This document shows positions 13,875 to 62,503 of a stretch of DNA of 64,000 bases, piece by piece; position 1 is the stretch's first letter, and each line of letters begins with the position of its first letter. This DNA comes from Colwellia sp. 75C3. Its GTDB lineage: Bacteria; Pseudomonadota; Gammaproteobacteria; Enterobacterales; Alteromonadaceae. The translations under genes and the position numbers were made by a program. Location: the NCBI RefSeq assembly GCF_002836255.1, contig NZ_PJAU01000031.1, positions 248,001 through 312,000 of the forward strand, read 5' to 3'. The notes under the pieces are model-generated. The model was given only the letters and a program-made list of their open reading frames with translations, did not search any database and had not been told where the DNA came from.

Positions 13875-13948
13875 TTGGCTCAAGGCATTCATCAATCGTG
13901 CTCATTGACATGCGTCAACTCCGCGCGATTTCTTTTCCCTTGAACCAA
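13875..13948 (+). repeat. Hairpin repeat, copy 1 (argS-prfC spacer)
   Basis: One of six copies of a long-hairpin repeat. Apex TTGAC-ATGC-GTCAA (13905-13918), middle arms ATCGTGC/GCGCGAT (13895 and 13923), outer arms TTGGCTCAAGG/CCTTGAACCAA (13875 and 13938, 10 of 11 paired). The middle-arm sequence differs from other copies on both sides together. Confidence 0.8.
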
Positions 13949-14064
13949 CTAACTGCGATAAAGAAGCTATTACGCAGTTAGTGAAATTTATTATTGTTTA
14001 TGTCCGATGTTTTACGAAATAAATCATCAAAAATAATATCAACTTACTCATGTTTGGTTAAGTA

Positions 14065-14166
14065 GATAGCGTTATAGCAAGGCGCTTAATCATTTTTATA
14101 AAAGAGCTTAGTACACTAAGTGACTGCATCAAAATGTTTAAGCAACGCCGCTAGAACGTTATATAC
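14065..14166. repeat. Second palindromic element, about 102 bp
   Basis: An imperfect inverted repeat centred on CTTAGT-AC-ACTAAG (14107-14120). The outer arms AGCGTTATAGCAAGGCGCTT (from 14068) and the reverse complement of the sequence ending at 14166 align with scattered mismatches over about 35 bp. It abuts the 3' end of prfC (stop at 14179) and may double as its terminator, though no T run follows on the minus strand. Confidence 0.55.
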
Positions 14167-14178
14167 GACACCAAAAGG

Positions 14179-15759
14179 TTAGTGTTCACGGGTCGAGTGA
14201 AACTGTATATCTGGGTTTCTTTCTTGTGCTAGCGATAAATTAACCATCGTCGGTGCGATGTACGTTAAGTTATTACCACCATCATATGCTAGGTAATCAC
14301 CCGATTTCTTTTTAAATTGCTCTAAAGTGCGCTCATCATCACAAGTACACCAGCGTGCAGTAGCAACACTAATGGCTTCGTATATAGCATCAACTTTATA
14401 TTCAGTTTTCAAACGTTGCACAACAACTTCAAACTGCAATACACCTACAGCACCAACAATCATATCGTTGTTAATGAATGGTCTAAATACTTGTACAGCA
14501 CCTTCTTCAGATAACTGAATCAGACCTTTCTGTAATTGTTTAGCTTTTAACGGATCACGAAGACGAATACGACGGAACATTTCAGGTGCGAAGTTAGGAA
14601 TACCACTAAACTTCATCATTTCACCCGAGGTAAACGTATCACCTATCTGAATACTACCGTGGTTGTGCAAACCAATAATATCACCGGCAAAGGCTTCCTC
14701 AACGTTTGATCGATCGCCAGCCATAAAGGTTACCGCATCGGCGATTTTGACATCTTTACCAATACGTACTTGTTTCATTTTCATACCTTTTTCATATTTG
14801 CCAGAGCAAATACGCATAAAGGCGATACGGTCACGATGTTTTGGATCCATATTGGCTTGAATTTTAAATATAAAACCTGAGAACTTTTCTTCTGTCGCAG
14901 TTACTTCGCGTAAATCTGTTTTGCGAGGTAATGGCTTCGGTGCCCATTTAGTCAAACCATCAAGCATGTGGTCAACACCAAAGTTACCTAGTGCAGTACC
15001 AAAGAATACTGGCGTTAATTCACCATTTAAGAATTCTTCTAAATTAAAATCATGAGAAGCGCCGGAAACAAGCTCTAATTCTTCACGTAAATCATCAGCA
15101 TAGTTACCAATTATTTTATCAAGTTCAGGATTATTAAGACCTTTAATAACGCGCTTTTCTTGAATCATGTGGCCTAGGCCTGATTGATACAAGGTGATTT
15201 CGTCATCAAGAATATGGTAAATGCCTTTAAATTCTTTACCCATGCCTATTGGCCAAGTAATAGCAGCACATTTAATTTTTAATACGTCTTCAACTTCATC
15301 CATAACTTCCATTGGGTCACGTACATCGCGATCCATTTTGTTCATGAAGGTAATGATTGGCGTATCGCGAAGACGAGTAACTTCCATTAACTTAACGGTA
15401 CGTGCTTCAACACCTTTGGCAACGTCAATTACCATTAAACATGAATCAACGGCGGTCAGTGTACGGTAAGTATCTTCTGAGAAATCTTCATGACCAGGAG
15501 TATCAAGTAAGTTTACTAAACAGTCATTGTAAGGAAATTGCATTACCGAGGTAGTAATTGATATACCACGCTCTTTTTCCATTTCCATCCAGTCAGATTT
15601 TGCGTGTTGACCTGATTTTTTACCTTTTACCGTACCGGCTCTTTGTAAGGCTTGGCCAAACAAAAGCACTTTTTCGGTGATGGTGGTTTTACCCGCATCG
15701 GGGTGAGAAATAATGGCAAAGGTGCGACGTAAATCGACTTGCTGTTGCTGTACAGACAT
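14179..15759 (-). CDS. prfC: Peptide chain release factor 3
   Basis: RF3 is the translational GTPase that drives RF1/RF2 off the ribosome after termination. G-domain motifs are in order: SHPDAGKTT (G1), RGISITTSV (G2), DTPGHEDF (G3) and NKMD (G4). The 526-residue length and the domain II/III sequence fit RF3 rather than EF-G. In E. coli the order is holD-rimI-yjjG-prfC; here holD and rimI also lie upstream on the same strand, but yjjG is replaced by an unrelated 82-codon gene. Confidence 0.97.
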
Positions 15760-16074
15760 GCAAATTACCTGTTAAGTAAATAGTGGAGAAGCTCCTTGAG
15801 TACTTGGCTTAGTATTAACCTTAGTACAGGGCTTTTCATCATAATTAAAAAATTGCGCGCATTATAACATTAAAATAGAAAAAATTTGTAAAAAGCAGCG
15901 TTTATAAAAACTAACTTTTTATATCGCTAAAAGGGGAATTAATGGAACTTAAAAATAATGGCAGGAGAGGTCTGTTTACTTTACTGTAACTTTAGATAAG
16001 CCGACATGAAATTGACGAAAAATATGTTGCTAAAGAGATAGTTTTCTAAAGTTTAATTAGCTTACTTTGAGCAA
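15760..16074. other. prfC upstream region
   Basis: This 315-bp gap holds a minus-strand TATAAT at 15861-15866 followed by a GC-rich stretch (GCGCGC), the kind of discriminator seen in growth-rate-controlled genes. No convincing -35 lies 16-18 bp before it. Nothing else is recognised. Confidence 0.4.
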
Positions 16075-16323
16075 TTAGATGAATAAGTTTGAAATAAATT
16101 GAGATTCATTTTGGTCCAATAAGGGGGTAGGTCGCGGGGTGAATTTTACCACTTTATTATCATTGCTTGCTGGATTCACTTGGCTAGATAATAATGCAAA
16201 AGCTTGATGTTCGCTAAGTCCCGTAAGTTGGCTGATTTTTCTCAATGCATCACTTACAACAAGGTTTGCTACACCTTCATTCGAGAGTTGGCTATCTGTA
16301 GTGGGAATTATTTTAGTAAACAT
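16075..16323 (-). CDS. Hypothetical protein, 82 residues
   Basis: I do not recognise this protein. It is predicted to be soluble, with a helical segment LRKISQLTGLSEHQAFALLS (about residues 27-46) that resembles a small helix-turn-helix or UBA-like fold, then a basic stretch VKFTPRP. No signal peptide or membrane helix is seen. It starts with ATG 184 bp downstream of rimI, codirectional with holD-rimI and prfC, in the slot occupied by yjjG in E. coli. Its codon use looks like its neighbours. It could be a real lineage-specific gene; coding status rests on the open frame and position only. Confidence 0.55.
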   Translation of the reverse strand: MFTKIIPTTDSQLSNEGVANLVVSDALRKISQLTGLSEHQAFALLSSQVNPASNDNKVVKFTPRPTPLLDQNESQFISNLFI

Positions 16324-16506
16324 ACTGTTCTCATCATCACTTGTTAAAAACCTTGTTAGGAATCTTAGTAAGTATCTTGTTGAGTATATTAACTAAAACA
16401 GAGAGATTAACTAGCCACTTTGCGTGTGAAAATGTTGTTGTTTGTTAATGGATGGCTAGTTTGGTATTTACTTAGGGGGTGATTATCAGTCTATTGACGT
16501 TTTTTA

Positions 16507-16995
16507 TTAGCATTTCAATGACATAACAATAGCATCTTCATAACCAAAGCCTGAACTGCTCGGGTAGTAACCTGTACGACGATCAATTTCGATAAAACCA
16601 GCATTCATATAAAGCATTTGAGCTGCTATATTTTTAGCGCGCACTTCTAAAAACACTTTAGTGGTACCCAGTTTTTTAGCTTGGGCTAAAAACTGGTTAA
16701 GCAATGCTTTACCGTATCCCTTACCTTGCTCTGTTGGTACTACACAAATATCCATCAGTGTTGCTTCACCAATAACATATTCACCAATATAAAAACCTAT
16801 AGCATGCTCGGCTGAGAGATCTTTTTCAGTTACTTGAAAAAAATCGCCAAAATAACGGCCACCAATACAGCTTGAAAAAGTTTTTTCACTCCAAGGATGT
16901 GAATGACAAGCAAGTTCAATGGGCATTAACTTATCTACATCGGCTTGTGCTATTTCAGTAAAGTATTTTGTGCTATTTTTTGCTGCATTACTCAT
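16507..16995 (-). CDS. rimI: Ribosomal protein S18 alanine N-acetyltransferase
   Basis: RimI is a GNAT acetyltransferase that modifies the N-terminal alanine of ribosomal protein S18. The acetyl-CoA loop EQGKGYGKALL (Q/RxxGxG/A) follows the strand ATLMDICVVP, and the RimI-typical FLEVRAKNIAAQMLYMNAGF and R-RTGYYP segments follow. Length 162 is close to the E. coli enzyme, with a slightly longer N-terminus. It lies 9 bp downstream of holD on the same strand, the standard holD-rimI pair. Confidence 0.92.
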   Translation of the reverse strand: MSNAAKNSTKYFTEIAQADVDKLMPIELACHSHPWSEKTFSSCIGGRYFGDFFQVTEKDLSAEHAIGFYIGEYVIGEATLMDICVVPTEQGKGYGKALLNQFLAQAKKLGTTKVFLEVRAKNIAAQMLYMNAGFIEIDRRTGYYPSSSGFGYEDAIVMSLKC

Positions 16996-17004
16996 TGTAT
17001 TTAC

Positions 17005-17385
17005 TTACTCTTGTGTTTTTTTAGTCAGTAATTGCCATAATTGCTTTTTAAGCGCAGGCGACTTTGATATTTCGGCGATAGTAGGCGTAATAAGCTGCTG
17101 CTCAAGCCATTGTATTTCATTCTTAGATGATACTGAGGTGAAATACCAGTTAAATAGCCCTAAGTTTAAGTGGTCATCTTGGTGACTAATTTCACCGATA
17201 CTTAAACCCGTTGCTAATAAAATGTCATTGAATAGTTGTTGCTTTGCTAACTCATTTAAATCGATATCAAGATAGCTGTTGGGTTGAGTTTGGGTTGCGG
17301 CATTTACAGACTGAGAAGTACGGCGCTGCCAAAGGCTGATGCCCATTTCAGTGAGTTGCTCAAATTGATGTTGGTTAATGCTCAT
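17005..17385 (-). CDS. holD: DNA polymerase III psi subunit
   Basis: Psi links the clamp-loader complex with chi and single-stranded-DNA-binding protein at the replication fork. The protein is fast-evolving, so the call relies on the N-terminal pattern QLTEMGISLWQRR (E. coli QLGITQWSLRR), the C-terminal helix with SPALKKQLWQLL, the size (126 residues; E. coli 137) and its place directly before rimI. No other family fits. The N-terminal motif is the part that contacts chi in the known family. Confidence 0.8.
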   Translation of the reverse strand: MSINQHQFEQLTEMGISLWQRRTSQSVNAATQTQPNSYLDIDLNELAKQQLFNDILLATGLSIGEISHQDDHLNLGLFNWYFTSVSSKNEIQWLEQQLITPTIAEISKSPALKKQLWQLLTKKTQE

Positions 17386-17577
17386 CAGTGATGGCTCATT
17401 TGCTAGTACAACGTAAGGTTAAATATAATGACAGAATTAGTTGCTGACTAAAAGCAGATAAATTAATGTTGCGCTAAGTATTATTTAATAAGTTATTTTG
17501 GTCATGGCTAGTAGTTTGACTTTTAAATTTACTAGATGATTTATCAGGGAGATATAGATATAACACAGGAGAAAAAA

Positions 17578-17654
17578 TGGCAGGGGTGGAGAGACTCGAA
17601 CTCCCAACCATCGGTTTTGGAGACCGCTGTTCTACCAATTGGAACTACACCCCT
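17578..17654 (-). tRNA. tRNA-Trp (anticodon CCA)
   Basis: A full cloverleaf on the minus strand: acceptor AGGGGTG pairs with CACCCCT, discriminator G, and CCA is encoded (17578-17580). The anticodon loop CTCCAAA carries CCA at 17618-17620, and the T arm contains GTTCGAGTC. It is a single tRNA gene, 77 nt including CCA, about 190 bp before holD. Confidence 0.97.
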
Positions 17655-17667
17655 GCAGCTGAAACGA

Positions 17668-17695
17668 ATTATACTGATGCGAGCTAAAAGGTAAA
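17668..17695 (-). promoter_or_regulatory. Promoter of tRNA-Trp
   Basis: Minus-strand TTTACC (17690-17695) and TATAAT (17668-17673) are 16 bp apart. They lie 13 bp before the mature 5' end of the tRNA. Confidence 0.6.
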
Positions 17696-17815
17696 GCTCT
17701 AATACGATTTATTTACTAAAAATTGACTGTTTGCCTGATTTAACAACAAACTGGCAGTTAAGTAAGCAGTTTGTTGCTAGGTTAATTCTGAATTTTGTTT
17801 TAAAATTCAATTTTG

Positions 17816-19579
17816 TTACTTACCGGGTAGCCCTTGATGACAAAAACGGTATTTCTCTGGATAAGGAAAAACATCTTTATAAATACCATTGGCGACATCT
17901 TTTTGGCATTGTTGCCAATATTTTGCTGTTAACAAATCGTCATGGTGTATTTTAAATGCTTTTAAATAACTGGGATTTGCCAATGCAAAGGTCGCTATTT
18001 CTTCTGGGAACATATCTCCAGGTAATACTGTATACCAAGGTTCAGCAGCGTATAGTTGTTCTTCAGTAACCGCCTTAGGCTTCTCCCGAAAGTTGACCTC
18101 ATTCATATAGGTTATTTCATCGTAATCATAAAAAATCACCCGTCCATGGCGAGTAACACCAAAGTTTTTGAGTAACATATCACCTGGAAATATATCTGCG
18201 GAGATAAGTTGTTTAATCGCTTCACCATAACCAAACATGGCATTGTCTATTTTTTCTTGGGCTTTGTTTTTAAGGGCATCTATTAGATATAGATTAAGTG
18301 GCACCATACGACGCTCTATATAGACATGCTCAATAATAAGAAGCTCGTCTTCTCCCTCTCCCTCATAACGAATAATTGATGAAGCTACTTTTTGTAATTC
18401 AGCTAACAGTTCATCGTTAAAACGTTTTTTGGGGAAAGCGACTTCGGAATACTCCATGGTATCCGCCATGCGACCGACTCTGTCATGTAGCTTAACTAAA
18501 CGATACTTGCCTTTGACATCTTTTTTAGTCATGTTTTTACTGGGTGAGAACTTATCTTTAATAATCTTAAAAACATAGGGGTATGAGGGCAGGGTAAATA
18601 CCGACATCACCATACCTTTGATACCGGCAGCTAATTCAAATTGGTCATCACTGCTCTCTAGGTGGTTAAGGAAATCTCGATAGAATTGTGTTTTACCTTG
18701 TTTATGAAAGCCAATTGCCGAATATAAATCAGCTTTAGTTTTATGAGGCATAAGCCCTTGTAGGAAATTAACTAAGGCATAAGGATGCTGACAATCTACA
18801 AAAAAGTAAGCGCGGGCAAAACCAAATACCACCGCCATACTTTCGCTGGTAGTTAATAGTGCATCTAAGTATAAACCGCCTTTTTCGTTATTAAGTACCG
18901 CGACAATAAATGGAGTTTCTCCTGCAGGAGATAAAACCCGACCAATTAAATAGGCACCTTTGTTACGGTAAAAAGTAAAGTTTAAAATATCAAACTGTAA
19001 ATCTTCTAGTTTTACGCGAGTTTTATGTGCTTTACGGCGAAAGGTATTGATAAGTGCATCAACATCACGGTCGAGGTTTTCAAAAGGAATAACCGTTCTA
19101 TGATTGTTCATAATGTCACAGATGGTTTGTTTTAAGCCCAATACTTCCGGCTTATAAGAGGTATAAATTTCTGGTGCTGCTTTATCATCAAGTCGGTGCG
19201 CGGTACTTTCCACAAAAATATAATCATTATGATAATACTTACGTTCAAATAAATGACAAAAAACCGAGTTATAAAAGGTTTCAGCCAATTCAGGTTGCAT
19301 ATGATTGGTTAATAAATCGGAGTAAACAGCTTTAACTTGCTGCCACAACGCGTTATCAAGTGAGCTAATATCGAAGTTTTCTTTTATATGGTTGAAAGTT
19401 TCAGTTACACGATCATCATAAAAAGTAGTTCTGGCTCTGGCCGAACGATGAATTTCATTCCATTGGCATTGTTGAAATCGCTCTCGGGCTGATTGAGTAA
19501 TCTCAGTGAAAAGTGCAACATGGTGTTCAAAGCCGTTAATAATAGTGGAGGCTATAGTAAGCGCAAGTTCATTTTTCAT
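17816..19579 (-). CDS. aceK: Isocitrate dehydrogenase kinase/phosphatase
   Basis: AceK phosphorylates and dephosphorylates isocitrate dehydrogenase, setting the split between the TCA cycle and the glyoxylate bypass during growth on acetate or fatty acids. The 587-residue length and the N-terminal regulatory half followed by an atypical kinase half (AGIKGMVMSVFTLPSYPYVFKI around residue 315; FFDYDEI-like DYDEITYMNEVNFR near 500) match the family. It is monocistronic here and not linked to aceA or aceB inside this window, as in many Alteromonadales. Confidence 0.95.
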   Translation of the reverse strand: MKNELALTIASTIINGFEHHVALFTEITQSARERFQQCQWNEIHRSARARTTFYDDRVTETFNHIKENFDISSLDNALWQQVKAVYSDLLTNHMQPELAETFYNSVFCHLFERKYYHNDYIFVESTAHRLDDKAAPEIYTSYKPEVLGLKQTICDIMNNHRTVIPFENLDRDVDALINTFRRKAHKTRVKLEDLQFDILNFTFYRNKGAYLIGRVLSPAGETPFIVAVLNNEKGGLYLDALLTTSESMAVVFGFARAYFFVDCQHPYALVNFLQGLMPHKTKADLYSAIGFHKQGKTQFYRDFLNHLESSDDQFELAAGIKGMVMSVFTLPSYPYVFKIIKDKFSPSKNMTKKDVKGKYRLVKLHDRVGRMADTMEYSEVAFPKKRFNDELLAELQKVASSIIRYEGEGEDELLIIEHVYIERRMVPLNLYLIDALKNKAQEKIDNAMFGYGEAIKQLISADIFPGDMLLKNFGVTRHGRVIFYDYDEITYMNEVNFREKPKAVTEEQLYAAEPWYTVLPGDMFPEEIATFALANPSYLKAFKIHHDDLLTAKYWQQCQKDVANGIYKDVFPYPEKYRFCHQGLPGK

Positions 19580-19830
19580 AAGGCATCAACTCTTTAGTCG
19601 TTTTAAAAAGGGGAGGATATAAGTAGTGTTTATCACCCAACATACACTAAAAGCCTTATAGCAGAGATAATTATCATAAATACTGGTTATCACTGGCAAT
19701 AATGTTGTTTCAACACAACTTTGTTCTCTCTTCTTCAAGCTTACGCTTTAAAAGTGGCGAATTAACTTGCTATCAAGGGCGTGCAGCTCTAAAATTACGC
19801 CTTTTTTAAGCCAGAAAAATAGCCAATATC

Positions 19831-20901
19831 ATGCGTGTTTCAGACTTTTCCTTCGATTTACCCGAAGCTCTTATTGCTCGTTATCCAAAAGCAGAGCGCA
19901 CTTCTAGTCGTTTAATGGCCTTAAATGGTAATTCTGGCGCAATAACCGACGGTGTTTTTACCGATATCGTTGCGCAATTGAATTCAGGTGATTTACTCGT
20001 TTTCAACAATACCCGCGTAATTCCAGCAAGGATGTTTGGTCAAAAAGCCAGTGGTGGTAAAATTGAGGTATTGGTTGAGCGTATTATCGACCAAAATACT
20101 GCCTTTGCTCATATTCGTGCCAGTAAATCGCCTAAAGTTGGCAATGAGCTATACCTTGGGAATGAAGGTAGTGACGTTAAAGTTAAAGCAACAATGGTTG
20201 CGCGCCACGGTGCACTTTTTGAGTTAAAGTTTCATGGTGACCAATCAGTTTTAGATATTTTAGATGATATAGGGCATATGCCACTACCACCTTATATAGA
20301 TAGACCTGATGAAGACAGCGATAAAGAACGCTATCAAACAGTTTACAATGAAAAGCCTGGCGCAGTTGCCGCGCCAACGGCAGGTTTACACTTTGATGAA
20401 GCTTTATTAGAACAGATAAAAGCCAAAGGCGTTGAGCTGGCATTTGTTACTTTGCATGTTGGCGCAGGGACTTTTCAACCGGTTAAGGTTGACGAGATTG
20501 CCGATCATATTATGCATGCTGAATATGTTGAAGTATCAGATGAAGTTGTTGCGCAAATATCAAAAACCAAAGCAGCAGGCGGTCGAGTCGTCGCCGTTGG
20601 CACAACATCAGTTCGTTCACTCGAAAGTGCAGCTAAAGCCTCACAAGAAAAAGGCGAAGCGTTAAGTGCCTTTTATGGTGATACTGATATCTTCATTACT
20701 CCTGGTTGTGAATTTAGAGTAATCGATGCCTTAGTGACTAATTTTCACTTATCAGAGTCGACCTTATTGATGTTAGTGAGTGCCTTTTCAGGTTATGACC
20801 ATATTATGTCTGCTTATCAACATGCGATAAGCAAAGAATACCGATTTTTTAGTTATGGCGATGCGATGTTTCTAACTAAACAAGAGCTGAGCAATAGCTA
20901 A
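19831..20901 (+). CDS. queA: S-adenosylmethionine:tRNA ribosyltransferase-isomerase
   Basis: QueA transfers and isomerises the ribosyl part of SAM onto preQ1 in tRNA, making epoxyqueuosine. Family motifs are visible from the N-terminus ([19 protein letters not shown]) through [31 protein letters not shown] and [10 protein letters not shown] to FSYGDAMF at the end. Length 356 is typical. It starts the cluster queA-tgt-yajC-secD-secF, with tgt following after 82 bp. Confidence 0.97.
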
Positions 20902-20971
20902 CTAAGTAACGTTACCTAAGTAAAACCTTATTTTAAACCAAACACCGCCAGCCTGTTTTGCTAGTGGGTGA

Positions 20972-22141
<1,170 letters not shown>

Positions 22142-22210
22142 GGTCAATTTACCTTAAAATATTTAGAAGAGTTTTAAAAATCCAGTAGCTTGTCAATTTG
22201 AAGCTATTCG

Positions 22211-22278
22211 GTTTGATTTATAAGAAAAGGCACAGAGTTGACGTTAGTCAATGAGTACCTTTGACACCTAAATCAAAC
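22211..22278 (-). repeat. Hairpin repeat, copy 2 (tgt-yajC spacer)
   Basis: Inverted relative to copy 1. The outer arms GTTTGATTTA (22211) and TAAATCAAAC (22269) pair perfectly; the middle arms AAAAGGCAC and GTACCTTT (22225 and 22255) pair with one G-T; apex TTGAC-GTTA-GTCAA (22238-22251). Confidence 0.85.
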
Positions 22279-22344
22279 TTAATGGCAATAAAGTGATAAG
22301 TTACTAACTAATTAGCTAATCAATAATAAGAAGTAGAGACAAAT

Positions 22345-22680
22345 ATGAGTTTATTTATCAGTACAGCACACGCAGCAGACGCACCAGCAGCAGCCGGCGG
22401 CGGAATGGAAATGATCATAATGCTAGCCGTTTTTGGTTTAGTATTCTTTTTCATGATTTATCGTCCACAAGCGAAACGTGTAAAAGAACATAAAGGTTTA
22501 ATGTCTTCACTAGCTAAAGGCGATGAAGTCTTAACGCAAGGCGGCATTGTTGGCAAAATCGTTAAAGTTTCTGATGAAAAAGACTTTATTGTTGTTAGCA
22601 TTAGCGAAGGTACTGAAGTGACAGTACAGAAAGGCGCGATAAACGCGGTGCTTCCTAAAGGTACAATGAAATCTCTGTAG
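22345..22680 (+). CDS. yajC: Preprotein translocase subunit YajC
   Basis: YajC is the small inner-membrane partner of SecDF. It has one transmembrane helix (about residues 24-42, MIIMLAVFGLVFFFMIY), then the family motif RPQAKRVKEHKGLMSSL and a cytoplasmic beta domain ending in KGAINAVLPKGTMKSL. Length 111 is typical. It is followed by about 290 bp before secD, a gap unusually long for this operon because it holds two hairpin-repeat copies in opposite orientation. Confidence 0.96.
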   Translation: MSLFISTAHAADAPAAAGGGMEMIIMLAVFGLVFFFMIYRPQAKRVKEHKGLMSSLAKGDEVLTQGGIVGKIVKVSDEKDFIVVSISEGTEVTVQKGAINAVLPKGTMKSL

Positions 22681-22699
22681 CACATAACCTCATTGCCAT

Positions 22700-22773
22700 T
22701 TAACACGCTAGCGGCATCGGGAATACTCATTGACATTCGTCAACTCCGTGTTCCCTTTTTGCTAGTGTATTAA
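22700..22773 (+). repeat. Hairpin repeat, copy 3 (yajC-secD spacer)
   Basis: Outer arms TTAACACGCTAGC (22700) and GCTAGTGTATTAA (22761), middle arms GGGAATAC and GTGTTCCC (22719 and 22748) paired with one wobble, apex TTGAC-ATTC-GTCAA (22730-22743). Confidence 0.85.
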
Positions 22774-22853
22774 CTGATTGCGAGCTTAAGTACTATGGTA
22801 AAGATAAACTCTATAAAGAGTATAATTAAAGTTAGTAGATCTCTGATTTGTGG

Positions 22854-22935
22854 TCTATTGAAATAAGTACAAGGCGAAAGCGCGGAGTTGACCCATGTCA
22901 ACGAGCACATTCAACGCCGTAATTATAAAAATAGA
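22854..22935 (-). repeat. Hairpin repeat, copy 4 (yajC-secD spacer)
   Basis: Inverted copy closely matching copy 5 in its middle: GGCGAAAGCGC (22873), TTGAC-CCAT-GTCAA (22888-22901) and GCACATTCAACGCC (22905). Weaker outer arms are TCTATT (22854) and AATAGA (22930). It ends 35 bp before the secD start. Confidence 0.8.
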
Positions 22936-22970
22936 GCGGCAATACAACAGCCCTCTAAAAAGGACATATT

Positions 22971-34165: not shown

Positions 34166-34489
34166 ATGGCTGTTACCATGACTCCTGCTGCAGCTGAACG
34201 CGTTCAATCGTTCATGAAAAACCGTGGCAAAGGACTTGGACTTCGTTTAGGTATTAAAACCACCGGTTGTTCAGGTTTAGCCTATGTGCTCGAATTTGTT
34301 GATGATTTAAATGAAGATGATCAATTGTTTAACATTAAAGATGTTAATATCATCATCGACGAAAAAAGCTTAGTTTACCTTGATGGTATTGAACTCGACT
34401 TTACTAAAGAAGGTTTGAACGAAGGCTTTAAATTCACCAATCCCAACGCCAAAGGTGAGTGTGGGTGTGGTGAGTCGTTCAACGTATAA
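34166..34489 (+). CDS. iscA: Iron-sulfur assembly protein IscA
   Basis: IscA is an A-type carrier that passes clusters to target proteins. The three conserved cysteines lie in TTGCSGLAY (near 35) and in the C-terminal ECGCGESF. Length 107 is standard. It starts 11 bp after iscU, so the two are tightly coupled. The spacer after it holds hairpin-repeat copy 5, which could modulate expression of the distal hscBA-fdx genes. Confidence 0.97.
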
Positions 34490-34505
34490 TGTGTAAACTC
34501 TTTGC

Positions 34506-34585
34506 AACTTGATTCAATTACGGCGTTGAAAGTGCTCATTGACTAACGTCAACTCCGCGCTTTCGCCTTGTACTTGAACCGAGTT
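34506..34585 (+). repeat. Hairpin repeat, copy 5 (iscA-hscB spacer)
   Basis: The best-paired copy: outer arms AACTTGATTCAA (34506) and TTGAACCGAGTT (34574), middle GGCG-tt-GAAAGTGC with GCGCTTTCGCC, apex TTGAC-TAAC-GTCAA. It lies inside the isc operon, so it is almost certainly transcribed. Confidence 0.88.
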
Positions 34586-34660
34586 CCTTCGAGTTTTAAA
34601 CATTATTAAATTTTAGCTTACTATAGAAAGCTTTTAGACCATTTCCTCTAGGTATAAGCA

Positions 34661-51179: not shown

Positions 51180-51229
51180 GTTTTCCTCAGTTATAGGCAC
51201 CCACCGTGCTTACAATGATAAATTAAATT

Positions 51230-51372
51230 TTAGGCCGGTCTCCGGACTTGAATTATCAACAATTGATAGCTCACACCGTTGCGGGGGCAGTATTGGTTTT
51301 ACCAATTTCCCGTTTCACCTTTAGCTATGATTGAGATCAGTTGATAACTCAGAAATAAAGCTATTAGGCACC
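51230..51372 (-). promoter_or_regulatory. Cobalamin riboswitch upstream of btuB
   Basis: On the minus strand: GGTGCC start (51367-51372), GTGAAACGGGAAATTGG, ACTGCCCCCGCAACGGTGTG and the B12 box AGTCCGGAGACCGGCC (51232-51248). These are the conserved blocks of the cobalamin class in the right order. A small hairpin GCAC/GTGC just before the ribosome site (about 51197-51210) could complete translational control. Confidence 0.93.
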
Positions 51373-55030: not shown

Positions 55031-55043
55031 TTGAGAAGCGGAT

Positions 55044-55763: not shown

Positions 55764-55772
55764 GGGGTTGTC

Positions 55773-56240
55773 ATGAAAGGTAATAAAAATATTATTGCAC
55801 TGTTAAATAGTACTTTAGCTATTGAGTTGATAGCGATTAATCAATATTTTTTGCATGCTCGTATGTACAAAAACTGGGGCCTGGAGAAACTCAATAAAGC
55901 TGATTATAAATTATCCATTGATAAAATGAAGCAAGCGGATGACCTTATTGAGCGGATATTGTTTTTAGAAGGCTTGCCAAACTTACAAGATTTGGGACGT
56001 TTACATATCGGTGAACATGCGGCAGAGATGTTACAAGCGAATATGGATTTAGAGTACGTCTCTCAAAAGGCTTTACAAACTCTTATTGTGGAGAGTGAAA
56101 AGCTACAAGATTATATCAGCAGGGATTTAGCTGAGGATTTACTAGAAAATGTAGAAGAACAAATAGACTGGATTGAATCTCAACAATATATTATTGACCA
56201 TGCAGGTATAGAAAACTATTTGCAATCAATGATGAGCTAA
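55773..56240 (+). CDS. bfr: Bacterioferritin, heme-binding subunit
   Basis: The second bacterioferritin subunit (155 residues). It keeps Met52, the heme ligand, in IDKMKQAD, but the ferroxidase ligands are changed: E51 is Lys and H54 is Gln, and H130 is Gln, while E18, E94 and E127 remain. So it should bind heme at subunit interfaces but not oxidise iron efficiently. It follows its partner by 9 bp and is convergent with bfd, whose product reduces the heme to release iron. Confidence 0.95.
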   Translation: MKGNKNIIALLNSTLAIELIAINQYFLHARMYKNWGLEKLNKADYKLSIDKMKQADDLIERILFLEGLPNLQDLGRLHIGEHAAEMLQANMDLEYVSQKALQTLIVESEKLQDYISRDLAEDLLENVEEQIDWIESQQYIIDHAGIENYLQSMMS

Positions 56241-56326
56241 CCTTTAGCATCCTAAGTAATGTGTGAAGTGCAGTTAAAAGTTAGTCTGTTAACGGTTAAA
56301 TTCGCTAACCGGTAGTTAACCAGTAG

Positions 56327-56521
56327 TTAAGCAACTTGTGGCTGTGCTTCAGCAATTTGCATTAATTTTTTGTTTAATACTCGTTTAGTGCATTGACAAC
56401 ATTTACCGCATTGTGAGCCTACTTTAAGCTCTTGAGTCAATTGTTTCATCGTTTCTGCGCCATTATCTATAGCGGATTCTATTTGTGTATCGGTAACACC
56501 ATGACAAATACAAATGAACAT
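56327..56521 (-). CDS. bfd: Bacterioferritin-associated ferredoxin
   Basis: Bfd is the small [2Fe-2S] protein that docks on bacterioferritin near the heme and delivers electrons to release iron. The cluster cysteines are MFICICHGV (C4, C6) and GSQCGKCC near residue 40, the C-x-C...C-xx-C pattern of BFD-type domains. I chose the ATG at 56521, which gives 64 residues, the family size; the longer open frame would add an implausible hydrophobic leader. A Fur box lies 55 bp upstream, implying induction when iron is low. Confidence 0.94.
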   Translation of the reverse strand: MFICICHGVTDTQIESAIDNGAETMKQLTQELKVGSQCGKCCQCTKRVLNKKLMQIAEAQPQVA

Positions 56522-56575
56522 AAAAACAGCACTCAACTTGAAAAACAACGTATAAACAGTGATGCTTATAATAAC

Positions 56576-56594
56576 CGTAATGATAATAATTATC
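56576..56594 (-). promoter_or_regulatory. Fur box upstream of bfd
   Basis: The 19-bp sequence with core TAATGATAATAATTATC matches the Fur consensus at about 16 of 19 positions by eye. It lies upstream of the minus-strand bfd gene, a known Fur target in gammaproteobacteria. Confidence 0.75.
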
Positions 56595-56596
56595 AA

Positions 56597-56905
56597 TAAG
56601 ATTGTTTAGTAGTAAAATTAATGACTTAGTCTATTTAGGTATTTTGTTGATCATCTTGAAGAGTTTTTTATAAGATTATTGAGTATTATTAGTCTTATTT
56701 ATGGTAATGAAATAGCTGTTAATAAGTGCTATATCTTAATTTTTATCTTTCAACAACTCGGGGTGTTGACAGGTTTGAGTGACTTTTACTGCTAAACTTA
56801 GTTGAAGTATATTTGTACTTTAACTAAGTCTAATTAAGTTTAACTATTGTTGCATACTTATAATGTAAGTGTGGCAGAGGACGGTAAAGTTTTAGGTCTA
56901 TTATT
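56597..56905. other. Gene-free region before the solute-binding-like gene
   Basis: About 310 bp without a gene. A good TTGACA occurs at about 56765 on the plus strand, with only weak -10 candidates. No repeat or RNA is recognised. Confidence 0.3.
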
Positions 56906-57619
56906 TTGCATTCTTTCTTTTGTAATCTATTTATTATCAGTGCCGTACTTTTTTATTCATTAAGTGCAAAATCTGCTGCGAATAAAACCATAACATTAGG
57001 TACTACTAATGCGACTGTAACACCTTTATATCAAAAAGCTCATCGCATTTTAACTTATGCGTTTCTTCAATTTGGCTATGACCTTTCAATAAAGGTTCTC
57101 CCGAACAAACGCAGCTTAATTTGGGCTAATCATGGTGTACTTGATGGTGATCTATTTCGTATCAGTAATCTAGATTTAACAACATTTATGAATTTGCAGC
57201 GAGTTGATGAACCACTTTTTGTTATTGATCAATCCGTGATTGGAAAAGCAGGTATTAAGGTTAATGGTTGGCAAAGTATGAATAAGTATATTGTTGCTTA
57301 TGAAAGAGGGACAAAATTTATTGAGACTCATCAAGATAAATTTAAAGGTGTTATTTTAGTTAATACATTTGATCAAGCGGTAGCACTTATTCATGCTGGT
57401 CGTGCTGATATTACGATTACAAGTAGAAATACAGCAAACACTTTCCTAGCTCGTTTAAAATATGATCATGAAGTTATGGTTCATCAGCCCCCTTTAGTTG
57501 AAATAGCATTACATGTTTATATTAATAAGTATAAACACCCAGAATTGGCTGATAAGCTGTCAGCGTTATTAAGATTAATGAAAAGTAATGGTCAATTTGA
57601 GGCATTATTATCTGAATAA
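56906..57619 (+). CDS. Periplasmic solute-binding-like protein (SBP_bac_3 type)
   Basis: A secreted protein of 237 residues resembling amino-acid type solute-binding proteins. The signal peptide covers about residues 1-25 (FIISAVLFYSLSAKSA). The mature part has the two-lobe features KAHRILTYAFLQFGYDLSIKVLP, DGDLFRISNLDLTTF and FDQAVALIHAGRADITITS. Such stand-alone proteins are common in Colwellia, unlinked to transporters, and may sense ligands. The start is TTG (ATT at 56900 is an alternative); no ATG fits. It ends at a bidirectional terminator. Confidence 0.72.
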   Translation: MHSFFCNLFIISAVLFYSLSAKSAANKTITLGTTNATVTPLYQKAHRILTYAFLQFGYDLSIKVLPNKRSLIWANHGVLDGDLFRISNLDLTTFMNLQRVDEPLFVIDQSVIGKAGIKVNGWQSMNKYIVAYERGTKFIETHQDKFKGVILVNTFDQAVALIHAGRADITITSRNTANTFLARLKYDHEVMVHQPPLVEIALHVYINKYKHPELADKLSALLRLMKSNGQFEALLSE

Positions 57620-57653
57620 TCATTTACTATTATAGCAACTTATTTCGCTCAAT

Positions 57654-57680
57654 AAAAAAGGAGCCTAAGCTCCTTTTTTA
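57654..57680 (+). terminator. Bidirectional terminator between convergent genes
   Basis: Stem AAAAGGAGC/GCTCCTTTT with a CTAA loop and T/A runs on both sides, between the solute-binding-like gene and the M13 peptidase gene. Confidence 0.88.
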
Positions 57681-57700
57681 TTGTTATATAGGCAAACTAA

Positions 57701-59764
57701 TTACCAAATTTTAACGCGTTTTTCTGGTGCTATATACATTGCATCGCCTTCTTTAACATCAAATGCTTGATAAAACTCATTCATGTTAGAAAGTGAACCA
57801 AGAGCACGGAACTCTGCAGGTGAATGTGGGTCTGTAGCTACACGATTACGTGCAGATTTCTCAACAATTTTCGCACGCCAGATTTGAGCATAACCCATAA
57901 AGAAACGTTGATCGCCAGTTAAGCCATCCAGAACCGGTGCTTCTTCACCATTTAATGACGTTTTATAGGCTCTATAAGCGATAGTTACCCCTGATAAATC
58001 ACCGATATTTTCACCGAGTGTCAACTTACCATTTACAGCTAAGTCGTCAAAAACGTGATATTCATCATATTGCTCAACTAACGCTTTAGTACGGTTAGAA
58101 AATTCTGCTAAATCTTGCTCAGTCCACCAATTACGTAAGTTACCTTCAGCATCATACTTACTACCTTGATCATCAAAGCCGTGGCCCATCTCATGGCCAA
58201 TTACTGCACCAATGCCACCGTAGTTAACGGCATCATCAGCTTTCATATTAAAAAACGGTGCTTGTAATATAGCGGCAGGGAAAACAATTTCGTTTACCGT
58301 TGGATTATAATAAGCATTAACCGTTTGTGGTGTCATGCCCCATTCCCAATTTTTAATTGGACCACCAAGTTTAGCAACTTCTTTATCATGAGATAAACGT
58401 GAAGAACGCAGAATATTACCGACTAAATCATTACCATCAATACTTAGTGCAGAGTAATCTTCCCATCTATCAGGGTAACCAATTTTAGGTGTAAAAGCGG
58501 CTAACTTAACATGTGCTGCTTTTTTGGTATCTGTAGACATCCACTCAAGATCATCAATGCTATTACCATAAGATGAACGTAAGTTTTCAACTAATTCACT
58601 CATGCGCGCCTTAGCTTGTGGAGTAAAGTGACGATTAACATACACTTTACCAATGACTTCTCCTAAATTACCGTTAACAACACCTACACCACGTTTCCAT
58701 TGTGGACGTTGCTCTTGTCGGCCACTTAATTGTTTTGAATAAAAATCAAAGTTCTCATTATCTATATCAGTAGTTAAGTAGCTAGAAAAGTTACTTAAAC
58801 TATGGAAGTTTAAATACGTTTTCCAATCTTCTAGTGATGTTTCAGCAAATATTTCACCGAAACCAGCAACAAAATCTGGTTGGTTAATAATAATATCTTT
58901 TTGAGAAGCAACTCCTTGAGCAGCAAGGTAAGCTGACCAATCAAAAGCATCAGTTAATTCATTGAGTTTATTAACTGCATACTTGTTGTAACGTTTTTCA
59001 CTGTCTCGACTTTGAACTTGCGTCCAGTGAAACTTAGCTAATTTTGTTTCTAATGCCATGATAGTTTTAGCTGCTTTTTTACCATCAGCAATACCGGCTA
59101 AATTGAACATTTTTTCAATATGAGCGATATAACCAGCACGTAAAGCAGTAAAACGCTCAGTTTCATTAAAGTAGTAGTCTTTATCAGGTAAGCCCAAGCC
59201 ACTTTGCCAGATGTGCGTTGCATAACTGCTAGAATCTTTAGCATTAACGCTAATGTAAAAAGCTAAAGGACTGCCAACACCCACCGCTTGATATTCACCA
59301 AAAAAGCTTGCTAATTCTGATTTATTATTAAGATTGTTAATTGCATCAAAAATAGGTTGGATTGGCTTAACACCTAAACTGTTGCGTTTTTCTGTGTCCA
59401 TGTACGAGCGAAAGATGTCAGCTACTTTTTGTTCATCGCTACCTTTAGTTAGGTTTTTAGCGACAGCCAGTTCTTCAATGATGGCTTTAACATCATCATC
59501 AGCTTTATCTCGAAGATCATAGAATGAACCGATAGCCGTTTTATCACCTGGAATGGTATGGTTCTTCAACCAATTGCCATTTACATAACGATAAAAATTG
59601 TCTTGTGGACGGATAGTGTTGTCAATGTTGGCTTTTTCTATACCAGAAGCTAGTGCGGTTTTTTGTGTAGTAAATGGTACGTTATTGCTGGTATCAGCTT
59701 GGGTAGTACAGCCAGTCATTAGCAATAATGATGAACATATTGCACTGGTAATAATTGCTTTCAT
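57701..59764 (-). CDS. M13 family zinc metallopeptidase (lipoprotein)
   Basis: A neprilysin/PepO-type peptidase that cleaves small peptides outside the cytoplasm. The signal MKAIITSAICSSLLLMTGC has a lipobox (MTGC, Cys19). The catalytic zinc motif is HEMGH (about 524-528), with the third ligand in GENIGDLSG and the substrate motif NAYYNPTVNEIVFPA before it. It ends RVKIW, typical of the family. I chose the ATG at 59764, preceded by GGAATTTTC, which starts the lipoprotein signal. Length 687 is normal. It and the DPP IV suggest a peptide-degrading lifestyle. Confidence 0.94.
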   Translation of the reverse strand: MKAIITSAICSSLLLMTGCTTQADTSNNVPFTTQKTALASGIEKANIDNTIRPQDNFYRYVNGNWLKNHTIPGDKTAIGSFYDLRDKADDDVKAIIEELAVAKNLTKGSDEQKVADIFRSYMDTEKRNSLGVKPIQPIFDAINNLNNKSELASFFGEYQAVGVGSPLAFYISVNAKDSSSYATHIWQSGLGLPDKDYYFNETERFTALRAGYIAHIEKMFNLAGIADGKKAAKTIMALETKLAKFHWTQVQSRDSEKRYNKYAVNKLNELTDAFDWSAYLAAQGVASQKDIIINQPDFVAGFGEIFAETSLEDWKTYLNFHSLSNFSSYLTTDIDNENFDFYSKQLSGRQEQRPQWKRGVGVVNGNLGEVIGKVYVNRHFTPQAKARMSELVENLRSSYGNSIDDLEWMSTDTKKAAHVKLAAFTPKIGYPDRWEDYSALSIDGNDLVGNILRSSRLSHDKEVAKLGGPIKNWEWGMTPQTVNAYYNPTVNEIVFPAAILQAPFFNMKADDAVNYGGIGAVIGHEMGHGFDDQGSKYDAEGNLRNWWTEQDLAEFSNRTKALVEQYDEYHVFDDLAVNGKLTLGENIGDLSGVTIAYRAYKTSLNGEEAPVLDGLTGDQRFFMGYAQIWRAKIVEKSARNRVATDPHSPAEFRALGSLSNMNEFYQAFDVKEGDAMYIAPEKRVKIW

Positions 59765-60071
59765 GAAAATTCCTTGTCTATATGTCATAGAATGTTTTGA
59801 GTAATCAAAGATATAATGAGAATTTTAATTTTTTAATTTTTTATACTTTGAACATGCTAAATACGCACGATTGCTCGATTCTACTGGGTATTTTTAAGGA
59901 TTTCTAGCGAATGAAACATCTGTTTACATATTTGTTTTATTTAGAAATATCATCAGAAATTAATATTTAGGAAGGTTATTACGCAAGGTCTTGCTTTTAT
60001 TGGTTTAACACCTAGTTAACAAATGTTTGACTAGGTGTTACAGACGCTTAATGTGATGATGCAAATATTAA
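59765..60071. other. Gene-free region between M13 and ThrE-like genes
   Basis: A 307-bp gap. Apart from the hairpin at 60006 (listed separately) I see no gene, repeat or RNA. It should include the M13 promoter. Confidence 0.4.
60006..60040 (-). terminator. Possible terminator hairpin after the ThrE-like gene
   Basis: A perfect 11-bp stem TAACACCTAGT/ACTAGGTGTTA with a partly self-complementary loop (CAAA-TG-TTTG). It sits 32 bp past the minus-strand stop, but no T run follows. Confidence 0.5.
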
Positions 60072-61298
60072 TTATAAGGTTTTTCCATGAGGCAATACTG
60101 CATTGGAGAAAATAATACCAGCAACCAGTGACATAAATATTAAGAATGTTTGGGAACCTAAATCAGGTACGTTCAACATATTCTGTCCAGAGACCGCACT
60201 ATTTAAGCCAATATAAACTTTGGATCCAGGTACAAGTACGACTAAGCCGAGGATTCTTACAATGCTAGAAGGCAGGTTCATCATTCGAGAAAATAAATTA
60301 CTGTATAAGCCTAGTGCAAAAGCGCCAACAAATGCGCCTAACGCTACGCCTAAATAATTACTTGCCCAAATGCTAACACCAAAGGCAATATAACCAGAAA
60401 TCATACCCCAAGGAGCGTCTTTTAATCTTACTTTAAAGAGAATAACTAGACTGGCAGAAAGTGTTGTTACCGCAAGCCATGAAGTCCACACTGGCATAGT
60501 GTCAGGAGGAATGAATACTGAAGTTCCCCATATCAAATTACCCAGAGCCATACCTAATACAGCACCAAAATACAGCTTAAATAACATCATTATACTGTCC
60601 ATGATGCGCGCAGTACCAGACATTAAATGCCGTGCCGCAAGTTCAGATAAACCCACGGTTAAAGATAGCCCCGGTATAAATACAATGATGCTTGACAGAA
60701 TTACCATAGGGATATTTATGCTAGGATCAATTATTGATATGGCCGAAGCTAATAGTGATGCCACAAGAGCTGCCATTGGTTCGAGTAAATCAGACATGCG
60801 TCGTGAGCGCTCAGCCCAAAGTACAAAAGCAAAGGTAACCCAACCTAAAATAGTCGACCAAAAAACATCGTGCCAGCTAGTATGCATTAACATAGCAAAA
60901 GCGCCGCTTGATGCTCCGTACGCTAAAAAAGATAACATAGTACCGTAAGGTGCTGGTTTATTTTTTACTTCGGCTAAACGATCAATCGCTTCACTTAGTG
61001 TACGCTGACCGTTGATTAGCTCATCAACAAGCTCATCAATACGTGCTAAAGAACCAAGGTCGATATCACCAGGACTAACACGGACTAAATGATTATATTG
61101 CTGATCATCTTCATCATCAGATAAGATAAAAGTTAATGCGGTAGGCGTGATGATAAATGAAGCGCGAATATCGAGGAAACTTGCAATAGATAATAGGTTA
61201 TCTTCTAAACGATATGCGGTAGAGCCTAGCTTATGTAAAGCTTTGCCTAATTTTATGATAAAACGACGTTTTTGGTAGAAATTATCGGTTTGTTGCAT
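60072..61298 (-). CDS. ThrE-like threonine/serine exporter family protein
   Basis: A membrane protein of 408 residues with a cytoplasmic N-terminal part (1-125) carrying LGKALHKLGSTAYRLEDNLLSIA and PAPYGTMLSFLAYGASSGAFAML, then about ten helices. This is the DUF1212/ThrE architecture as one polypeptide. Family members export threonine and serine (Corynebacterium glutamicum ThrE); many others are untested. It is divergent from a tiny membrane-protein gene that begins about 90 bp away. Confidence 0.85.
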   Translation of the reverse strand: MQQTDNFYQKRRFIIKLGKALHKLGSTAYRLEDNLLSIASFLDIRASFIITPTALTFILSDDEDDQQYNHLVRVSPGDIDLGSLARIDELVDELINGQRTLSEAIDRLAEVKNKPAPYGTMLSFLAYGASSGAFAMLMHTSWHDVFWSTILGWVTFAFVLWAERSRRMSDLLEPMAALVASLLASAISIIDPSINIPMVILSSIIVFIPGLSLTVGLSELAARHLMSGTARIMDSIMMLFKLYFGAVLGMALGNLIWGTSVFIPPDTMPVWTSWLAVTTLSASLVILFKVRLKDAPWGMISGYIAFGVSIWASNYLGVALGAFVGAFALGLYSNLFSRMMNLPSSIVRILGLVVLVPGSKVYIGLNSAVSGQNMLNVPDLGSQTFLIFMSLVAGIIFSNAVLPHGKTL

Positions 61299-61387
61299 TG
61301 CTATATTTGATGGTAAGTTGCACTGTTTGCTATGGTAATCGATTTTGCTAAAACAGGGTATAAAAAACTAATAAAAAGAGAAAAAAA

Positions 61388-61561
61388 ATGACATTAATAA
61401 TTATTTTGGCTTGTGTTTTTTTAGCGGTATTTCTGATGGTTACTTTGGGGGAGAAGTTTGGTAAATCCATGACCGATGAACAGCAAGGTAAGTACGGTAA
61501 AATATTACCAATATTGGTATTTATATTATTAATCGCTGCTATTATCAAAGCAATGTTTTAA
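61388..61561 (+). CDS. Small two-helix membrane protein, 57 residues
   Basis: Not a usual gene call because of its size, but well supported: ATG at 61388 after AAAAAGAGAAA, then two hydrophobic helices (residues 2-19, TLIIILACVFLAVFLMVT, and 39-56, ILPILVFILLIAAIIKAM) separated by a charged cytoplasmic-type loop GEKFGKSMTDEQQGKYGK. No match to a named family. It lies between the ThrE-like gene and the aldolase gene and might be a membrane-complex accessory subunit. Confidence 0.75.
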   Translation: MTLIIILACVFLAVFLMVTLGEKFGKSMTDEQQGKYGKILPILVFILLIAAIIKAMF

Positions 61562-61637
61562 ACGGCTTTATTGCCTATTCATCATCAGGTAAAATCTAGC
61601 GATAACCAACTATTCTTACACATAGAGAGCTCTTGTA

Positions 61638-62408
61638 ATGCAGCCACTGCCTAAACTCGATTTAAAAAATAAAGTATCAGCCCAAGAATGGCAATTACGG
61701 GTAGATTTGGCGGCTTGTTACCGGTTATTACAAATGCACGGTTGGGATGATCTTATTCATACTCATATTTCTGTCTGCATCCCGGGTACTGAACATATTT
61801 TGATAAATGCTTTCGGTTTAGCTTTTGAAGAAATAACCGCCTCAAATTTAGTTAAAATTGATATTGACGGTAATATTATCGACAAAGATTGTCCGTTTGA
61901 AATAAACCCAGCAGGCTTTACTATTCATAGTGCAGTACATCAAGTACGCCACGATGACATTTGTGCATTGCATATACACACTAATGAAACTATTGCCGTT
62001 GCTAGTGTAGAAGAGGGGCTATTGCCTTTAAGTCAATATTCAATGTTTGCCTTAGCGTCTATGAGTTACCATGATTATGAAGGTCTAGCGGTTAATGATG
62101 ATGAAAAGCGTAGATTGCAACATGATTTAGGTGATAAAAACTTTATGTTATTACGCAATCATGGTGCTTTAACCATGGGCAAAACCATTGGTGATGCCTT
62201 TATGCATATGTATGATTTAACACGTGCTTGTGAAATACAGCTTCAAGTAATGGCGACAGGCATGAAACCTATTTATGCCCCGCAAAGTATTATTGATGGC
62301 ATTAAGGCGCAAGCTAATATTGTGCATTCTGGCGAAACGGGCGGTCAAAAAGCATGGCCAGCCATGCTCAGAAGAGTTTATCGTAATGACCCCACTTTTG
62401 CTCAGTAG
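61638..62408 (+). CDS. Class II aldolase/adducin family protein
   Basis: A 256-residue cytoplasmic protein with the aldolase/adducin fold. Zinc-ligand histidines are visible in LHIHTN and RNHGALTMG. At the place of the catalytic glutamate of fuculose-phosphate aldolase the sequence reads NPAGFTIHSAVHQV, with Gly or Ala instead of Glu, so classical aldol cleavage is doubtful. Such proteins are often near sugar-acid genes, as here with a dehydratase and an amidohydrolase, but the substrate is unknown. Hairpin-repeat copy 6 follows. Confidence 0.8.
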   Translation: MQPLPKLDLKNKVSAQEWQLRVDLAACYRLLQMHGWDDLIHTHISVCIPGTEHILINAFGLAFEEITASNLVKIDIDGNIIDKDCPFEINPAGFTIHSAVHQVRHDDICALHIHTNETIAVASVEEGLLPLSQYSMFALASMSYHDYEGLAVNDDEKRRLQHDLGDKNFMLLRNHGALTMGKTIGDAFMHMYDLTRACEIQLQVMATGMKPIYAPQSIIDGIKAQANIVHSGETGGQKAWPAMLRRVYRNDPTFAQ

Positions 62409-62423
62409 TCACCTTCTTTTTGC

Positions 62424-62503
62424 TGTATCGCTCAATTTAGGCGTCAAAGGTACTCATTGACTAGCGTCAACTCCGTGCATTTTCCTTTAACTTGAACGAT
62501 ACA
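62424..62503 (+). repeat. Hairpin repeat, copy 6 (aldolase-dehydratase spacer)
   Basis: Outer arms TGTATCG (62424) and CGATACA (62497) pair perfectly, then TCAA/TTGA, middle AAAGGTAC with GTGCATTTT (one mismatch, one wobble), apex TTGAC-TAGC-GTCAA. The outer arm sequence is unlike the other copies. Confidence 0.85.

Follow-up and report, generated by a model that had tools for sequence, protein, structure and literature searches.

Hairpin Repeats of Colwellia sp. 75C3 as Probable Members of a Gammaproteobacterial ERIC Superfamily, Often Placed in One Orientation at Gene Stop Codons

Six copies of a hairpin repeat of about 125 nt lie within a 64,000-nucleotide stretch of the genome of Colwellia sp. 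75C3 (NCBI RefSeq assembly GCF_002836255.1, contig NZ_PJAU01000031.1, forward-strand positions 248,001 to 312,000; the whole of this stretch is called the window below). Judged by their sequence and by model matches, these copies appear to belong to a Gammaproteobacteria-wide superfamily of enterobacterial repetitive intergenic consensus (ERIC) elements, that is, noncoding imperfect palindromes of ∼120–145 bp with a fixed apex, a fixed second loop, and free, co-evolving arms. Three properties of these elements are new. They often start in one orientation at the stop codon of a gene (53 vs. 3 of 97 sites), though not in Pseudomonas; at the same site in different species, their arms change with compensation or are swapped whole; and the strand that carries GGAG at the apex is predicted to fold best in every family tested, this being in Colwellia usually the strand antisense to the gene.

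The Repeat in the Window

The original prediction, made from the letters of the window, described a six-copy hairpin repeat with a conserved apex. A pattern search allowing up to three mismatches found exactly six apexes, against 0.10 expected, and none of 100 shuffles contained six. The apex TCATTGAC-N4-GTCAACTCC is exact in four copies, with one mismatch each in the copies originally placed at 22211 (CTCT) and 22854 (TCG), and the middle arms quoted in the prediction are present in the sequence. The hairpins themselves were confirmed, but their proposed extent of 68–82 bp was too short: model R1 spans 124–129 bp at all six copies (E 2e-14 to 3e-25), three of which (13850, 22675, and 34484) are in the R1 alignment and so match by construction. 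A second model, R2, built from Pseudomonas, Shewanella, and Halomonas copies only, with no Colwellia and no ERIC sequence, also recovers all six (E 6e-10 to 8e-5). Element length is nearly constant at ∼125 nt, 40 pieces of 125 nt fitting 126 alignment columns. Genome-wide (5.4 Mb), about 32 apexes were found with up to two mismatches, and none with the reversed pattern used as a control.

As had been predicted, all six copies are intergenic between codirectional genes, and the yajC–secD gap holds two of them. Gene names in the window are our reading of Pfam matches, and gene contexts throughout come from our own open reading frame (ORF) calls of at least 80 aa rather than from annotation. An Rfam scan gave no match at the six copies, which are as follows, together with an example of each conserved part.

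Copy 1: 13850–13974, + strand; in the prfC–argS gap (two − strand genes; argS start 13849), not stop-anchored, TCA strand antisense to the genes
Copy 2: 22182–22306, − strand; in the tgt–yajC gap, apex variant CTCT, not anchored, TCA strand antisense to the genes
Copy 3: 22675–22799, + strand; starts at the yajC stop codon (22678–22680), sense orientation
Copy 4: 22832–22960, − strand; between yajC and secD, antisense, apex variant TCG, not anchored
Copy 5: 34484–34609, + strand; starts at the stop codon of an iscA-like gene (stop end 34489), before hscB, sense
Copy 6: 62403–62526, + strand; starts at the stop codon of an aldolase-II gene (stop end 62408), before a mandelate-racemase-like gene, sense
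Conserved apex (copy 3): 22727–22747, + strand; TCA, 5-bp stem TTGAC/GTCAA, 4-nt loop, CTCC
Second conserved internal loop (copy 5): left side GGCGTT 34522–34527, + strand; right partner GCCTTG 34565–34570

Relation to ERIC and Distribution

The Colwellia copies share with ERIC (IRU, RU-1) a long imperfect palindrome of ∼125 bp placed between genes, an apex of the form TCA-5 bp-4 nt-5 bp-CTCC, a GCGTTG/GCCTT internal loop, and a better predicted fold of the GGAG strand. ERIC of E. coli, Klebsiella, and Rahnella has this apex as TCA-CTTAC-N4-GTAAG-CTCC together with the second loop, and the GCGTTG...GCCTT internal loop is found in Colwellia, Pseudomonas, and Halomonas copies as well as in Klebsiella ERIC. 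Starts at a stop codon in the sense orientation also occur in 4 of the 16 Klebsiella copies examined, one (L425, in our numbering of loci) being borderline antisense. The likeness to ERIC suggested in the original prediction was therefore borne out, whereas the 4-nt loop and the changing arms, which had been regarded as distinctive, are not: the 4-nt loop recurs in ERIC, and among Klebsiella ERIC copies there are pairing apex variants (CATAC/GTATG) and changing arms. Unlike ERIC, the Colwellia copies are strongly orientation-biased at stop codons; their arms share little sequence with those of ERIC, and their inner arm is shorter (by eye).

Model searches connect the two groups. R1 matched all 16 loci given from Halomonas, Shewanella, and Pseudomonas (E 2e-9 to 1.4e-3) and did not match ERIC directly, its best E value over five ERIC loci (four places) being 0.73. 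R2 matched Klebsiella ERIC at seven places under E 0.01 (best 4e-5) and Rahnella ERIC at 0.035; its matches to ERIC of E. coli (0.66) and Salmonella (0.91) covered the apex only and were nonsignificant, and it found no match in 7 of the 20 sources tried, three of those 7 being weak pattern matches. Because R2 joins the window copies and Klebsiella ERIC while R1 has no ERIC match, we consider the Colwellia copies to be probable members of the ERIC superfamily rather than classical ERIC.

The apex (up to one mismatch) is present in all 25 genomes of the genus searched and in 1 of 16 genomes of other genera of the order. Among the matches listed in named genomes are Colwellia, Cognaticolwellia, Thalassotalea, Shewanella, Pseudomonas, Halomonas, and Billgrantia, and nearly all of the named-genome copies that were folded form the long hairpin. 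Across the class, R1 matches (E≤0.001) occur in 22 of 274 genomes and 19 of 222 genera, the genome of origin included, which is likely a lower bound given that R1 misses ERIC and that the search filters were strict; this search scored 12 candidates in each genome. Two apparent betaproteobacterial occurrences were set aside: one (L121) has the apex without arms and was taken as chance, and the other (L174, titled Betaproteobacteria) is a full Colwellia-type copy with flanks orthologous to Colwellia, probably on a mis-binned contig. Very long, nearly perfect outer stems were seen in copies from other families of the class (L410, L411, L413, and L414, up to ∼20 bp in L414). Five tandem ERIC copies with ∼123-bp spacing (L435–L439) occupy positions 4851885–4852397 of Klebsiella record CP125156.1, which is filed as a plasmid and is 5.4 Mb long.

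The available text of a 2024 review places ERIC in the Enterobacteriaceae and Vibrionaceae (PMC10969869), and the accessible part of an earlier report records ERIC for E. coli, Y. pestis, and V. cholerae alongside unnamed repeat families in P. aeruginosa and P. putida (PMC2267715). The Pseudomonas elements may thus already be in print under another name. No ERIC relatives outside enterics and vibrios were recognized in the literature searched, most subscription papers lying outside its coverage. Compared by description only, the Correia/NEMIS elements of Neisseria are similar in being small palindromic repeats transcribed with genes, their transcripts being processed by RNase III according to the available part of the same review (PMC10969869).

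Placement at Stop Codons

A pool of 222 copies was collected by requiring an exact TCA/CTCC apex, all five apical stem pairs, and at least three of the next four pairs; seven were then omitted, leaving 215. Read in the orientation of the element, their gene contexts are ++ in 141, −− in 30, +− in 20, and −+ in 7, with 15 unresolved and 2 inside an ORF. An upstream stop codon is located 34–66 nt before the apex, at the base of the stem, in 151 of the 215 (mirror case: 6) and in 62 of 78 representatives (mirror: 1), the representatives being copies less than 80% identical to one another. Counted once per site (n=97), 53 are sense-anchored, 3 antisense-anchored, and 41 neither. The original prediction of either orientation is therefore true of the six window copies, three of which lie each way, and not of anchored copies over independent sites. 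Many copies run TAR...YTA.

Among short-arm copies 114 of 145 are sense-anchored and none antisense; for the remaining copies, most of them from Colwellia, the sense count is 25 of 37, with again no antisense case, and in the Shewanella group it is 8 of 12, with 1 antisense. Neither of two Halomonas copies is sense-anchored. In this grouping the Shewanella set includes L056 (G029), and Pseudomonas L142 and L165 and Billgrantia L148 are counted with the other copies.

One explanation for such placement is an element acting at the 3′ end of the mRNA, in which a sense hairpin at the stop codon is opened by the terminating ribosome and controls access of RNase, as for Yersinia ERIC. The available text on the latter describes effects on transcripts via an exposed RNase E site (PMC2229807, PMC10969869) and a crucial role for orientation (PMC2229807). 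Besides the sense bias itself, this explanation is favored by the next gene being codirectional in 136 of the 151 anchored copies, compared with 0.68–0.75 of background 3′ ends, and by an association between the third base of the stop codon and its right-arm partner (TAA-T 32, TAA-C 6, TAG-T 5, TAG-C 8; Fisher p 0.003). Of 76 scored copies, the latter test uses the 51 whose partner position is T or C; these copies are related, and a nonredundant set gives p 0.12. Half of the window copies are antisense, however, polarity is lacking in Pseudomonas, and the pairing and strand preferences reported below also count against selection on the sense transcript. We consider the mRNA explanation doubtful, though it keeps some weight because of the anchoring and the Yersinia work.

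Filled and Empty Sites

Clean empty sites show past mobility of relatives of the element in Pseudomonas and E. coli. At one Pseudomonas site (L081), two genomes are filled and two empty, and the empty site is a small hairpin with the element in its loop. At another (L330), one genome is filled and three are empty, and the element sits exactly at the stop codon. This stop codon is native, as filled and empty sites encode C-termini of equal length; its gene nevertheless ends in different codons from those at the empty sites (L370–L372), and in the filled site these final codons of the upstream gene pair with the right arm. Between yafP and prfH of E. coli, four strains read against K-12 comprise two that are empty, at a small palindrome, and two in which the copy has an internal deletion. 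Small palindromes thus mark two of the three clean empty sites (Pseudomonas and E. coli), and at L081 and in E. coli a short stretch of the flanking DNA is present again, inverted, in the filled site. At a further site (L333), the element is missing in three genomes, but the site has diverged.

Two readings were discarded. A terminator-like hairpin as the invariable target is true at one Pseudomonas site, false at L330, and not seen in Colwellia. The outer arm at L081 as a coding end was dropped because the empty site already has a hairpin.

Paired Arms and Their Replacement

The co-varying arms described in the original prediction were upheld. Searches of the genome and its relatives and a test of covariation, both of which had been proposed along with it, found further copies and covariation well above shuffled and slid controls. 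In the 40 best-paired representatives, 83.3% of cells pair, compared with 62.3% after shuffling and 32–40% after sliding, and both sides have changed in 410 cells compared with 140 shuffled; this set (A1, R1) was picked for pairing out of the 78, so its figures lean toward structure and the full set is the fairer one. In the latter, pairing exceeds that of shuffled partners at positions with almost no sequence information (e.g., 0.83 vs. 0.41 at a 0.12-bit column). For 147 short-arm copies at least six of eight inner-arm pairs were required, which biases inner-arm pairing upward.

In the mid stem, Watson–Crick pairs are enriched (905 observed vs. 512 shuffled), whereas G-T (47 vs. 112) and A-C (89 vs. 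150) are both depleted. Structured RNAs of the sense strand prefer G-U over A-C in their stems. Such a preference was not found here: copies with the TCA strand in the mRNA have A-C above G-T (outer 130 vs. 70, mid 69 vs. 47), which argues against the mRNA explanation. The several G-T pairs of the original prediction come down mainly to one fixed T-G pair beside the apex (71 of 78 representatives), G-T not being favored elsewhere. Columns 47, 48, 52, and 67 were excluded from the G-T and A-C counts in sense copies and in the ortholog pairs below.

The 215 copies include 36 orthologous groups, and in Colwellia the element has lasted at shared sites. Across 57 independent ortholog pairs, some of them long-arm pairs with approximate register, both partners differ in 122 column pairs, where 37.7 were expected, and single changes between Watson–Crick and another state involved G-T in 39 cases, A-C in 63, and other mismatches in 126. 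Compensation at orthologous sites is therefore real, though many single changes break pairs, and covariation continues once an element is in place at a given chromosomal position. Entire arms can be exchanged as well, as in L023 and L094, whose flanks are 93% identical and whose arms are 48% identical, unrelated copies averaging 57%. In 109 of 223 ortholog pairs (four flank-identity bins; pairs nonindependent), arm identity is within the 95% range of unrelated copies. At least two arm groups (joined above 0.70) are present at 13 of 27 orthologous sites, at 12 of which all members are sense-anchored, and 10 of the 27 have a pair with arm identity of 0.60 or less. A simple mobile element with identical arms, proposed as the opposite outcome, is not what we observe, given an average arm identity of 0.57 between unrelated copies.

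Paired arms might also arise through neutral template switching during replication, which mends quasi-palindromes so that arms stay paired without selection, by a mechanism described in the accessible text of PMC8794818. Pairing that is Watson–Crick only, with few G-T stepping stones, would fit this idea, as would the short inverted flank copies at the Pseudomonas and E. coli junctions and the coding end that pairs with the right arm at L330. So would 14 one-arm runs (at least two adjacent columns) between mismatch and pair, including one of five columns and one of three, some of them perhaps misregister. Double changes are nonetheless unclustered (6 adjacent vs. 4.1 expected, a value reached in 416 of 2,000 shuffles), and template switching predicts neither orientation nor strand bias. 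It would also be expected to mend the apex, and among 60 loci fetched by the flanking DNA of two sites, 42 have an asymmetric apex (up to three mismatches) and in no case is the apex a perfect palindrome, which means that the loops are maintained; a further count of 0 palindromic versus 233 is biased, most of those loci having been fetched by their asymmetric apex. Template switching as the sole cause is thus disfavored, though some one-arm runs fit it, and we rate it as improbable.

The locus of copy 6, originally placed at 62424, was matched in 38 other genomes of the genus, partial matches included. Thirty of these loci were read: 18 have the element (four with another insert in its apex), 3 have remnants, and 9 have none. 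At L283, L284, and L291, from three Colwellia genomes, ∼100 bp of a different palindromic repeat lies in the apex between CTCA (or CTCT) and TTGAC/TGAC. A second, larger interspersed repeat (GCGAGARTTTAAAG...CTTTAAAACTCGCC) lies in the apex of one copy and element-free in the same intergenic region of another genome (L285, L295). Two hybrid-looking copies (L273 and L093) have a left arm of one lineage and a right arm of another, with mismatched outer arms, and a half element common to three Colwellia genomes (L022, L117, and L243) has an intact right half and other sequence in place of the left.

The Strand That Folds

With the arms taken alone and RNA energies, the GGAG strand is predicted to be more stable in 61 of the 78 Colwellia-type representatives and less stable in 17. 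With DNA energies it is better in 65 of 78, and in 59 after three conserved columns are neutralized. Arms shuffled between copies show little strand difference. The same strand is better in 16 of 19 Pseudomonas, 8 of 11 Shewanella/Halomonas, and 12 of 14 ERIC copies. Mean energies in Colwellia favor it both in the 62 sense-anchored copies and in 9 antisense copies, and the fold would therefore belong to the element and not to the mRNA. Selection on the mRNA only is weakened by these tests. The original prediction had proposed selection on structure, at the RNA level or for a DNA cruciform; the structural part is consistent with the pairing, but selection on the sense mRNA is not the simplest reading, with A-C exceeding G-T and the opposite strand predicted to fold better.

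A further candidate is an antisense RNA, the GGAG strand being transcribed as a folded RNA overlapping the upstream gene at its 3′ end. Its better predicted fold would suit this role, as it is antisense at the anchored Colwellia copies. Rfam family RF02818 (V_AS5, Vibrio RNA AS5, typed antisense) also spans ERIC copies on the GGAG strand, matching one of E. coli (L329, 659–782; E 2e-7) and one of Klebsiella (E 2e-3) end to end, each below the gathering cut-off; from its span over the E. coli copy, RF02818 may itself be an ERIC copy. V_AS5 has no match at E≤1 to the six Colwellia loci tried, however. On this sequence evidence an antisense RNA seems distinctly unlikely.

A Working Model

Our preferred reading, offered tentatively and as somewhat less than probable, is that the working form is the hairpin of the GGAG strand of an ERIC-superfamily element, moved by an enzyme that reads its fixed apex and loops. 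The GGAG strand would most likely fold while replication or transcription exposes it as single-stranded DNA, and the enzyme, supplied from elsewhere, would recognize the fixed apex and loops in the manner of REP (repetitive extragenic palindromic) or attC hairpins. The chemistry of insertion would then account for the single orientation at stop codons and for successive replacements at one site, and nonpairing copies would be lost or replaced.

REP sequences are strand-specific hairpins. The Colwellia elements resemble REP/REPIN sequences mobilized with RAYT in having a four-letter tag (here GGAG) beside a short hairpin. They differ in length (125 bp vs. 20–40 bp), in the tag, which is GTAG or CGTC in REPs according to the available text of PMC3733652, and in having no apex beside a Y1 transposase.

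Several results weigh against this DNA-hairpin reading. Y1_Tnp is found in 27 of 39 genomes of the genus, and a Y1 transposase or RAYT partner was rejected since it is missing in the other 12 and the apex is present at none of 30 fetched Y1 loci. ERIC is associated with a TA target duplication; no target duplication was defined here, and the empty sites are without a simple TA duplication. No clean Colwellia empty site was obtained among the 30 loci read at 62424. Anchoring in Pseudomonas is without polarity (4 sense and 5 antisense of 19), mid-stem pairing is as low as 26% in one orthologous group with three members, and with RNA energies the GGAG advantage falls to 51 of 78 (27 less stable) once the three conserved columns are neutralized. 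The strand-test sequences are related, which makes the p-values optimistic, and energies do not distinguish DNA from RNA. Finally, stop-codon anchoring is more naturally explained at the level of RNA or translation, and compensation after insertion is not required by a model of mobility only.

A broader view, which we regard as possible but rather unlikely, is that ERIC is one branch of a class-wide set of strand-specific hairpin DNA elements, the Colwellia ones homing in one orientation to stop codons and being repeatedly replaced by relatives with unrelated arms. If this is true, an oriented insertion machinery common with that of ERIC would read the 3′ ends of genes. ERIC has been used for typing for decades, and to our knowledge its mover and function are open. 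Relatives with free arms in Colwellia, Shewanella, Pseudomonas, and Halomonas give the near-frozen ERIC an evolutionary signal that separates the fixed parts (apex and second loop) from the parts that need only pair, and indicates the folding strand and the places of settlement, making mover and function testable.

Apart from the repeat, the window contains a cobalamin riboswitch at 51216–51367 and a tRNA gene at 17581–17654, both on the − strand.

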